A stretch of 64,000 nt of DNA from Paramacrobiotus metropolitanus (lineage: Eukaryota; Tardigrada; Eutardigrada; Parachela; Macrobiotidae). The DNA is taken from positions 868,001 through 932,000 of the forward strand of contig NW_026570263.1 of assembly GCF_019649055.1 (NCBI RefSeq). The letters are read 5' to 3'. Shown piece by piece: positions 17,346-20,926 of the stretch. The notes under the pieces were generated by a model, which was not told the DNA's origin, ran no database searches, and saw nothing but the letters and a program-made list of their open reading frames with translations. The position numbers and the translations under genes are program-made. How positions within the stretch are numbered: position 1 is the stretch's first letter; every line of letters begins with the position of its first letter.

Positions 17346-20300
17346 TCACTCGCCGGCGTCGTCGCTGCCGGTGGGGCGGCTAATGGAGCCACGGTGACGC
17401 AGCGTATCCCCGGCGGTCATCGGCATATTCATTCCCATTCCTGCAAAGGAAAATATCAGAAAAATCCCCAAAAATATCATTTTTTACTCGTTAAATTAAA
17501 TAAAAAAATTAATAATTCTTCATCCGCCAAGACATTTCCCTGCAACAAACACGTGTTCAGTGTTCAGTGACCTTGCGCGGGCGCCTGCTGCATCATCCCT
17601 TGTCCTTGGGCGCCCATGTTCCCGTACTGGCTGCCCGGCGGCCCCATGGGCATCTGGTGGGCGTAGTACTGCCCCATCTGCGCCCCGCCGTCGCCCGGAT
17701 AGTGCCCCATGACGTAAGGCGGCTGCGGCGCCGCGGCGAACGGCGGCTGGAACTGCAGTTGCGAAGGACTGGCGGAGAAAAGGGGCTGCAGGCCCTGAGT
17801 GGCGGAGGTGGGGTACATAGTGGGCTGGGAGTGCGTGGTGAGGAAGTACGGGTGCGCAGTGCCCACGGGAATCTGCATCGCCGTCGATTCTGGGGGCGAC
17901 GTCAGGCCCAGCCCACTGGAGTTGAGTGGAAACGTGGCCGGCACGGAGCTGGAAGGGCTGGGAGCGGCTCTGCCCAGTGAAGGGACGAACCCGTGCTGCT
18001 GCTGCATCTGCTGCTGGGCGTCCAGCCGCGCCTTCACCTCCATGGCCTTCCCCTGCTCCGAGTGGAACTGCTGGCGCTCCTGGATCAGCTGCTGGCGCAG
18101 CAACTCCAGCTGAAAAAAGCACCGACCTGTTACGCAACCGGAAATGTCACATGCCGGTTCAGAGGATGTAGTGAGTTTTGACATTCACTGTACCTCCAGC
18201 GGCCCAGCTTGGGCTATATTCAGCAATTCCTCCGCCTGTTTCCGTTGCAACTCCTCCACCTGCTGCCTATGCAGCAGCACCCATTCCTCCGTCACCTGCC
18301 GCCGTTCCGTCTCAACCCGCGCCGCGAATTCCGCTTGCTGCCTTTCTTCCGCTTGCTGCCTTTCTTCCGCTTCCGCTGCCAGTTTTTTCTCGTCCTCCAT
18401 ACTATAACAAAGCAATGCAATGTCGTCTGATTGCTGAGCCGTCGGGTCATTTTGGCTCTATTTTTTTACAAAAATTGCGATTAATCTCAGATTATGAGTG
18501 CCGTCCCGGCACTGCGTGAGGCGTATCCGCGAGTTTTTGGGCGAGTAGAACATGTCTTTACGCCGCGTCTGGCTGCTTGCGCACAGTCTGCATTATCGCC
18601 ACCCAACCTCAGACACGCCGCCCGCTGACCTCCACAATATTTTCCATGGCCAGCTGATGCTCCTCTTCCCCGCCCCCCATCGATTCTTCCAGGCGGCTGC
18701 TCTTCACACAGTTCCCGCAACATCCACTCTGCTCGACCCAAATCAATGATCCCGCGGCACGTTCCCCCCACTGGCCACGCGGACAGTGCGCGGAAATCCC
18801 AAGGGGACTGATTCCAGATCCATCAGCGGAACGTACAGCTGCCGGCTCAGTTGGCGCTTGGATTACCTGCCCTCGCGGATTCCTTCAGCTCTCTTTCTAC
18901 TCTGTCCCTGATTAAAAACACGGAACATCACGGTCAGTCGGGAATCGTTGGGTTTAAGCAGGATGCAGATTCCGTGGATCTTCTCGTGGTTGGTCAAGTG
19001 TTGCATGAACAGCTGTAACTTCTTCTCGTCTTGACGGGCGCCGCTGGTGTCCTCGATGCCCGGGATGCCGACCTGACGAGCAATGATGCGGCCTTCTTGA
19101 TGCAGCAGCCGGCCGGCATCTGCGCGTCGAATTGTCCGCATTCCGGCTCGCTAGCATTTTCTCCACCCGTGCACCATGGACCATGGCAGATGGAATAATT
19201 TTTTTAAATATACTACGGTAATATACTATCTTTTTACAAAAGATGAGATTTTTTGAATTTTCATCCGGAAAATATGCCCCGGTAAGTCGTAACGAATATC
19301 AAAATAACGTAAAATACCTGGATTGTAGAAATGCGTCCAATGCAGCCTCATCTGGGTAAGGTGTACTTCTGATGCGGATTCCTGTTCCACTCAGTTTCTG
19401 CTGCAGCGATCTGTAAAAAGTCCGCCTAATGAACTAGTGACAGACACCAGTGACACCACGCCGGCATGACATATTATTGTTTTTCGCACCCGAATATGTG
19501 AAAACTTATTTTTCCAGTACAATGCATTTCACAACAGAATTAAATTAATTTTTACTACACATAATTAATTTCGTACATCAATTTCGAGGTACGTTTTCTT
19601 ATTTGTTTAAATTCAAAACAGAAACACTTTCGCTCGTGGGCAGGCAGCCATTTCCAATTAACTATCGAAAATGTTTTCCTTTATTGATGTTCAAATCGCG
19701 ACATAACAGTCGCAAGTCATTCTAAACTGTATTTTAATCTTATCTCTATTTTCAGCACTGCTAAGTACTAAGTTGTCATTCTGTCTGGAATACAACGGGC
19801 AGCGTTGCAAGGAAAACATCAGCAAATCGATATAATAATTATAATATATTTCAAAAGCTGCTGTCTGGCCGTAGTTAATTGACTTACGACTGTAATGTCG
19901 CGATTTGAAAATCAGTAAACCATTACTTTTCAAAAGCTGGGAAAACATTTAAAATAAAAATAAAATATCTTTGAAGATCTTACTTGACTGCTGATGAAAC
20001 ATCGCCATTTGCCTCCCGACACTTTAGCAGAACCACTTTCTGGGAATTTCGGTTCAAGCACCACATCGCCGAGGACACTTTTTTGCGGTTGAATGTTTCC
20101 TCCATTTCAAATTTCTTCAAAACAACTGACGCCAACACTCTCGGCTGCGTCCCGAAACCGTATTCGCGAACTGCTGTATCTGCAATTAACACAAACATAA
20201 AAATAATGTCGGATAGAGATTTTGGTTGTTTTTTTAATGTTTAAATTTTAACTGTAAAGTAGTGTGCCCGCGCTTGCACTTTTTGTTGTTTTGGCGGCTA

Positions 20301-20926
20301 TTGCCGAATAAGCAGAAACCACAGAATAGTTACAAAGATTTGAACAACTTTTAGGAATCAATGTTAATTTTATTTCATAAGAAAAATTAGACAATAAAAA
20401 AACAGCTTCGGAACATACAGTCACTCATTAAGCATCAATCGACAGAGACGGGCTAACTTTCATAAATATGATAAGGAATATATATTCACATCAGCCTCAG
20501 TAAAAAACGGACAATTAACTAACAGTACTCTACGCCGCGCACACAGTCCTGCTTACCGTAGCTGACCGATACACAGCAGTGCCCATCCCATTCCTTCTCG
20601 CGGCCTCCCTTCCCCCCGCCCAGCTTGCTCGGGCCGGAATGCGAGTCGCTGTCGTGCAGCCGACTGCCGCTCTCCTTGACGTCGCGCTCACGACGGCCAG
20701 CCGCCGTCGCTGCGTGCATGTTGTGAGCACGGGCCGGAGAGTGCCGCTTGTTGGACGGCGTCAGCTCGGCGCTGCTAGTGGAGGCGCCCGCTCCCGATGC
20801 AGTACTATCCCCGGTGACGTTGGGCGGTGAAGACTGATGGCCACGTTTGGCCGCCTGAACGTAGCTCATGCCAGAACTAGAAGTACCCACTTTCTGGCTG
20901 CTTGTACTCGCGCGACTACCGTCCAT
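17346..20926 (-). CDS. Chimeric SMARCC-derived protein (about 499 aa) without SWIRM or SANT
   Basis: Six exons in transcript order: 20926-20557, 20179-19984, 19410-19318, 18401-18194, 18109-17572 and 17440-17346. Phases are compatible at every junction and the total is exactly 500 codons. Exon 1 resembles the SMARCC N-terminus (GSRAS-SSQK-GTS; LHDSDSH-G-SKL). Exons 2 and 3 (about 96 aa) match nothing I recognise. Exon 4 is a Glu/Gln/Arg-rich coiled coil starting MEDEKKLAAEAEE. Exon 5 starts [16 protein letters not shown] and ends APAQG like SMARCC exons 11-12, but with intron 11 and flanking coding sequence deleted in frame. Exon 6 mirrors the SMARCC last exon, stop included. The gene is divergent to SMARCC. 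An unusual donor (gtcact) follows exon 5. It could be an expressed neogene or a recent pseudogene; intact frame and phases favour the former. Confidence 0.6.
18640..19130 (-). pseudogene. Decayed P-loop GTPase-like remnant in an intron of the chimera
   Basis: On the minus strand, 19080-18890 encodes IPGIEDTSG...HGICILLKPND-SRLTVMF, and about 18838-18745 encodes LYVPLMDLESVPLGFPRTVR. Both resemble blocks of large AIG1-like or dynamin-like GTPases that I recall with DTPGIGDTRG, HGICILLKPN and IDLE-V-L-HPRT. The switch-II-like Asp-Thr is lost from the first motif. A stop (18745-18743) and a frame change follow the second block, and a Cys-rich tail (CCGNC) reads in another frame. It lies wholly inside the intron between chimera exons 3 and 4 (19317-18402). 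Identification is by recall and needs a profile search. Confidence 0.5.
20211..20310 (+). mobile_element. LINE-like 3' tail, third copy
   Basis: About 100 bp carrying the last ten codons (DRDFGCFFNV, stop at 20244) and the 3' UTR of the element at 1080-2830. It is extremely 5'-truncated and lies in intron 1 of the chimeric gene, opposite to its transcription. Confidence 0.8.

Follow-up and report, generated by a model that had tools for sequence, protein, structure and literature searches.

A candidate chimeric gene from a partial, inverted SMARCC duplicate in the tardigrade Paramacrobiotus metropolitanus

Next to a SMARCC gene of Paramacrobiotus metropolitanus, on the opposite strand, lies a sequence whose two ends resemble those of SMARCC and whose middle does not. 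The question raised by this locus is whether the sequence is a new gene assembled beside its parent or a decaying duplicate. We analysed it within a window of 64,000 nucleotides (contig NW_026570263.1, positions 868,001 to 932,000); all positions below are those of the window (Table 1). The original prediction was a complete chimeric gene built from both ends of SMARCC around new exons. Our analysis leans somewhat towards a chimeric gene derived from a partial SMARCC duplicate, with both ends from SMARCC and an open frame, but exon 4 of this gene is probably a remnant of SMARCC exon 10 rather than a new exon, and exons 2 and 3 are marginal.

Table 1. Positions of the parent gene, the proposed parts of the copy and the sequence debris in its introns.
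Feature	Position	Strand	Remarks
Parent SMARCC gene	21865..27842	+	13 exons, 1092 aa
Presumed 5' UTR of copy	20927..20980 (54 bp)	-	81% identity to sequence preceding the SMARCC ATG
Exon 1	20557..20926 (370 nt)	-	ATG and head; SMARCC exons 1-2 fused
Exon 2 (proposed)	19984..20179 (196 nt)	-	no relative found; coding score about 0; restores frame
Exon 3 (proposed)	19318..19410 (93 nt)	-	no relative found; can be skipped without change of frame
Exon 4	18194..18401 (208 nt)	-	Glu/Gln-rich; own ATG at 18399
Exon 5	17572..18109 (538 nt)	-	SMARCC exons 11 and 12 fused
Exon 6	17346..17440 (95 nt)	-	counterpart of SMARCC exon 13 as far as the stop
Presumed 3' UTR and downstream of copy	16950..17345	-	89% identity to SMARCC 27843-28234; ATTAAA at 16979-16974
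GCCGCAGC (8 nt)	copy 17729-17722; SMARCC 26663-26670 and 27494-27501		junction of exon 5
Dispersed repeat, about 105 bp, intron 1	20210..20314	-	antisense insertion; 86% like window 2815-2722
Inverted repeat arms, intron 2	19919-19880 and 19719-19680 (span 19680..19919)		40 nt, 90%
Truncated terminal inverted repeat, MITE-like, intron 3	19174..19291	-	also on C53, C24, C9 (two places), C46
Dead GTPase-like fragments, intron 3	18504..19174	-	from G000:C40:117929-119491
ORF taken to be retroelement-like	1732-2754	+	the intron 1 repeat belongs to the family of its 3' end

Anatomy of the copy and its parent

Pfam placed SWIRM (206-284, E 3.8e-25), SANT/Myb (386-428, E 1.7e-13) and SWIRM-associated regions 1 and 3 in the parent protein, whose top PDB match was SMARCC2 chain 6lth_N (E 3.4e-156). 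A search of the genome (169.8 Mb in 533 contigs) returned three SWIRM matches; the parent SMARCC was the best of them (E 2.1e-23), and the other two were both on C25 (E 3.0e-7 and 2.1e-4). In the gene model, the conserved part of the parent begins at SWIRM. Animal SMARCC proteins have an N-terminal module, which Pfam did not show in the parent model; it is therefore either lost or encoded upstream, outside the model.

The second sequence duplicates part of this gene in inverted, head-to-head orientation, with 938 bp from ATG to ATG. A letter-by-letter check of its six minus-strand exons (20926..17346) gave five GT..AG introns of 377, 573, 916, 84 and 131 nt and a coding sequence of 1500 nt, or 499 codons plus a stop. 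The exons, compatible phases and frame of the original prediction were thus reproduced, with the correction that its "exactly 500 codons" include the stop, leaving a product of 499 residues. Homology starts 54 bp before the ATG and ends about 25 bp past an ATTAAA common to both copies, and common descent with SMARCC is evident from the head, the tail, intron 12 and the 3' flank, all of which are homologous. In blastn, 20980-20745 aligned with 21805-22049 (69%), 20710-20592 with 22308-22426 (87%), 18124-17722 with 26251-26670 (74%) and 17730-16950 with 27493-28234 (78%, gaps counted). These blocks, on opposite strands, confirmed that the first and last parts come from SMARCC, including the similarity of the 5' and 3' UTRs.

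Two junctions interrupt this homology. Near 20745-20710 in exon 1, SMARCC intron 1 and about 34 codons are gone, and the similarity stops at about 20590. In exon 5, SMARCC intron 11 and 588 coding nucleotides are gone at GCCGCAGC, which is common to both sides. Alignment to the 13-exon parent accordingly has introns 1 and 11 missing together with flanking coding bases and the frame intact, just as had been proposed. The loss of SWIRM and SANT was equally borne out, since a Pfam profile search with the 499-residue product gave no family at E 1, neither SWIRM nor SANT/Myb included, and both are present in the parent. No counterpart of SMARCC exons 3-9 was found by tblastn of SMARCC against the copy's centre. 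Hidden SMARCC exons within exons 2 and 3 were considered and rejected, as the tblastn rows were at chance level and the best of them (E 0.11) lay in another frame, at exon 4. The SMARCC-like segments are thus joined in frame to unrelated sequence, of which exons 2 and 3 are marginal. In the window no RNA family reached its gathering score, and ARAGORN returned no tRNA within 15000-30000.

The centre of the copy

Splice donors are weak in introns 4 and 5 (-0.19 and 0.68 bits, against 4.38 in the SMARCC counterpart of the latter). Exon 2 has good splice sites (donor 4.22, acceptor 4.51 bits), a length of 1 modulo 3 that matches the frame requirement and a GC content of 47%, compared with 34% in the adjoining introns. 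We searched for splice chains from the SMARCC-like head to exon 5 by dynamic programming, using generic splice weights and a codon model trained on 3661 codons of this genome. The search recovered exactly the predicted chain, with splice-site thresholds fixed at the weakest sites of the original prediction and hence biased toward the six-exon model. No locally shuffled centre among 300 reached the score of the chain, nor did any of 68 overlapping noncoding windows taken from four stretches of the genome on both strands; five of the shuffles and none of the windows had an open path of equal or greater length. In a smaller run of 150 shuffles, none reached the score and two reached the length. 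Looser thresholds gave another best chain, in which exon 2 was shorter and a piece of the GTPase fragment served as an exon. None of 150 shuffles reached the score of that chain, but 43 of them had an equally long open path. Much of the signal in this search comes from exon 4.

Exons 2 and 3 are the weak part of the model, because their codon score is about zero (exons 1, 4 and 5 are positive) and 16 of 300 shuffles scored as high as these two exons alone. Their length was matched in 21 of the 300; among 104 genomic windows, none matched them by score and five did by length. With looser thresholds a single shuffle in 150 did as well, but for another chain. Searches of the animal's own genome with exons 2 and 3 returned nothing but themselves, and no match was obtained at E 10 among 5.8 billion proteins (six candidates). 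A Pfam match to DUF6312 (E 0.023) was under the family cutoff, and the full 499-residue query gave one protein at E 0.065 among the 7995 scored. Tardigrades are probably scarce in or absent from the protein database, so that absence of relatives there means little. When the fold of exon 2 alone was predicted without an alignment, the mean pLDDT was 60.7, a low-confidence value. The description of these as two unrecognised exons therefore stands with respect to relatives in the genome and the protein database, whereas as exons they are marginal against shuffled sequence.

Exon 4 had been described as a Glu/Gln-rich coiled coil that replaces the one of SMARCC. Its composition agrees with this description, but its end can be aligned gap-free with that of SMARCC exon 10, and the two share splice junction and phase. 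The identities (22 of 39 nt and 31 of 60 nt) were the best among 12 SMARCC exon ends, the runners-up reaching 17/39 and 24/60. Across the window, 10 of 127,922 positions equalled the 39-nt match and 7 of 127,880 the 60-nt match, with exon 4 itself counted. Shuffling the bases of exon 4 gave 22/39 in 8 of 20,000 cases and shuffling its codons in 52 of 20,000; 49 of 20,000 protein shuffles were as good in an anchored test of 20 residues, and 117 of 5,000 shuffles were as good in local alignment. About 15 bases before exon 5 also match the acceptor end of SMARCC intron 10. The remainder of intron 4, without its last 20 nt, did not resemble that intron (2741 of 5000 shuffles did as well). Exon 4 contains tandem repeats of 18 and 24 nt, and on its own did not find SMARCC in Pfam or PDB. 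Matches to PF16495 (SWIRM-associated region 1) were below the cutoff, both for the coil of exons 4 and 5 (E 0.56) and for the first 20 residues of exon 5 alone (E 0.055), and exon 4 with the start of exon 5 had SMARCC2 chain 6lth_N as a weak top PDB match (E 0.044). The codon and protein shuffles, the local alignment, the lack of a SMARCC match for exon 4 on its own and the dissimilar remainder of intron 4 count against descent from SMARCC exon 10. Even so, we read exon 4 as the probable remnant of that exon, diverged and enlarged by the tandem repeats. A foreign coil was rejected as the simplest reading because of the in-register match to the end of exon 10. The coiled tail of the GTPase was rejected as well, as the C40 gene has no matching stretch past the fragment.

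The introns contain debris of mobile elements and a pseudogene. The repeat in intron 1 occurs in at least 38 other places in the genome. We take the ORF at 1732-2754, at the 3' end of which its source family lies, to be retroelement-like on account of its repetition; Pfam gives no family for this ORF. In intron 3, the truncated terminal inverted repeat recurs at five other loci examined and directly abuts, at 19174, the GTPase-like fragments, which have stops in all three frames and internal deletions. The GTPase-like gene on C40 scored 22.4 bits with Pfam MMR_HSR1 (cutoff 21.9). An ORF upstream in that gene matched DUF7656 (E 5.8e-11).

Constraint and divergence

None of the six gaps counted in coding sequence breaks the frame (6, 9, 3 and 3 nt in the head, 3 nt in the tail and 9 nt in exon 6), whereas 16 of 22 noncoding gaps in the 5' UTR, intron 5 and the 3' UTR do (Fisher 0.0025). 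With the frame open as well, the disabled frame of a pseudogene was not found. The coding count takes the head, exon 5b and exon 6 and omits 11 gaps of the base-level alignment in the diverged middle of exon 5, eight of which are not multiples of three. These were left out because the gaps of each unbalanced pair offset one another inside about 13 nt and the proteins align in frame; the omission is a judgement, and counting them would weaken the contrast between coding and noncoding sequence. One 5-nt gap at an alignment end, produced by the position of the cut, was also omitted. A neutral copy would be expected to have 4.6 frame-breaking indels in the head (probability of none, 0.01) and 8.3 in the head, exon 5b and exon 6 together (0.0002). 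No stop codon was present across the 311 compared codons, and simulated neutral copies stayed stop-free in 10-31% of runs for the head and 7-32% for the tail. The indel pattern favours a gene over a pseudogene.

The comparison of dN/dS with SMARCC, suggested along with the original prediction, did not separate the two. Over the same 311 codons omega was 0.42 (95% 0.31-0.58), with 0.36 (0.20-0.64) for the head and 0.46 (0.30-0.71) for the tail. About 0.5 would be expected for a neutrally evolving copy whose parent is strongly conserved, so this is not decisive.

Synonymous divergence between copy and parent changes abruptly across the junctions, from 0.96 before to 0.17 after junction 1 (Fisher 0.0007) and from 0.47 to 0.15 across junction 2 (Fisher 0.006). 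The first 40 codons of exon 5 (dN 0.021, dS 0.24) are followed by a dS of 0.58 ahead of junction 2, and exon 6 has a dS of 0.31; the values for these 40 codons and for exon 6 make the divergence a mosaic, with steps that are not confined to the junctions. Since the intron losses coincide with divergence steps, they point to out-of-register gene conversion from the neighbouring SMARCC, or to a later or second duplication, and not to precise intron loss. Either event would explain why the introns vanished together with flanking codons. In the 3' noncoding sequence, 50 of 465 positions differ between copy and SMARCC. The stretches 16950-17730 and 27493-28234 are unusually alike, with a run of more than 100 bp that is nearly identical. 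Conversion is the likely cause of this near-identity of the 3' UTR-like stretches, and a common regulatory element may be another.

Competing readings and possible significance

From the anatomy, the homology, the frame and the divergence steps we infer an order of events. A partial inverted duplication would have set a second SMARCC copy head to head with the original. Its centre (exons 3-9, with SWIRM, SANT and SWIRM-associated region 3) would then have been lost, and a patchwork incorporating debris of mobile elements and a pseudogene would have taken its place. Later the head and tail blocks were presumably overwritten in part from SMARCC, by out-of-register conversion or a second duplication, which would have removed introns 1 and 11 plus flanking coding sequence. 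The frame would have been kept, with two exons of unknown origin and the diverged exon-10 coil as a bridge. Splicing and translation of the copy would most likely yield the 499-residue protein, predicted to combine the disordered ends of SMARCC with the final part of its coil and to have neither SWIRM nor SANT.

A decaying, unexpressed or non-coding partial inverted duplicate, in which chance and recent conversion from SMARCC left the frame open, is possible and in our estimate clearly less probable than a gene. The transposon end, the retroelement end and the dead GTPase fragment within the copy all fit such a pseudogene, as do the marginal exons 2 and 3, the weak donors of introns 4 and 5, and an omega near that of a neutral copy of a well-conserved parent. 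It accounts poorly for indels that stay in frame and for the lack of stops even in the most diverged head block, which was not recently overwritten, and for a splice chain that exceeds shuffled sequence. We find it unlikely that the locus makes two products, with exons 2 and 3 unreal, namely a head protein that stops at 20519 in intron 1, which is as far as the head ORF continues, and a coil-plus-tail protein from the in-frame ATG at the start of exon 4. That ATG has a favourable context (A at -3, G at +4), and the weakness of exons 2 and 3 suits this reading; a second promoter would, however, be needed in the debris of intron 3, and exon 2 has good splice sites and a fitting length. A partial retrocopy of SMARCC mRNA seems very improbable: introns 1 and 11 are indeed missing, but their losses are imprecise and took coding bases too, intron 12 and the acceptor end of intron 10 have kept homologues, and the homology extends upstream of the ATG and beyond the ATTAAA.

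For the chimeric gene that we favour, any role in SWI/SNF would run through the coil and the Pro/Gln-rich tail. Competition for SMARCC partners through the coil would be possible, although no more than about 20-40 of its residues are well conserved in the copy. A bolder version, which we regard as unlikely, would have a working gene rewritten by repeated out-of-register conversion, each tract deleting an intron and its flanking codons and selection keeping the frame. Its product, a SMARCC relative stripped of domains, would bind partners in SWI/SNF by the remaining coil and tail and modulate the complex. The head, the tail and probably part of the coil of the copy come from the SMARCC family (BAF155/BAF170, Moira, Swi3), from which it differs by lacking SWIRM, SANT/Myb and SWIRM-associated region 3. 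Nothing joining the BAF155 coiled coil, a dominant negative and SWIRM was found in the literature.

The gene jingwei is a known chimeric gene of the duplication or rearrangement kind. One study describes chimeric Drosophila genes, shown to be expressed, in which duplication or rearrangement went together with the recruitment of de novo exons (PMC6776367). As proposed for the copy, a fragment with its own start was joined there to previously unrelated DNA that turned into exons; the causes put forward are ectopic recombination, gene conversion and transposable elements (PMC6776367). In contrast to the cases described there (PMC6776367), both ends of the copy come from one parent, so that start, stop and presumed 3' signals would all be inherited. 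Gene conversion between palindrome arms, as described in another study (PMC6790999), likewise involves nearby inverted copies with patchy similarity suggesting conversion; unlike in those arms, conversion in the copy, if it occurred, was out of register and took introns and flanking coding sequence. If expressed, the copy would be a compact case of a new gene arising beside its parent with the frame kept, in which an inverted duplicate lost its domain core, took in debris that became introns and unknown DNA that became exons, and was overwritten in part by the parent. One could then test if conversion between neighbouring inverted copies is able to take out introns in coding-neutral steps, and if the SWI/SNF of this animal includes a subunit variant lacking SWIRM and SANT. 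If unexpressed, the copy is an ordinary decaying duplicate.

Elsewhere in the window, Pfam gave no match for the ORFs 12298-13512 and 15683-16735. By eye, plus-strand ORFs form similar-looking pairs (3832-4800 with 12298-13515, and 5485-6687 with 15683-16738), which suggests a tandem duplication of a gene pair near the SMARCC locus.
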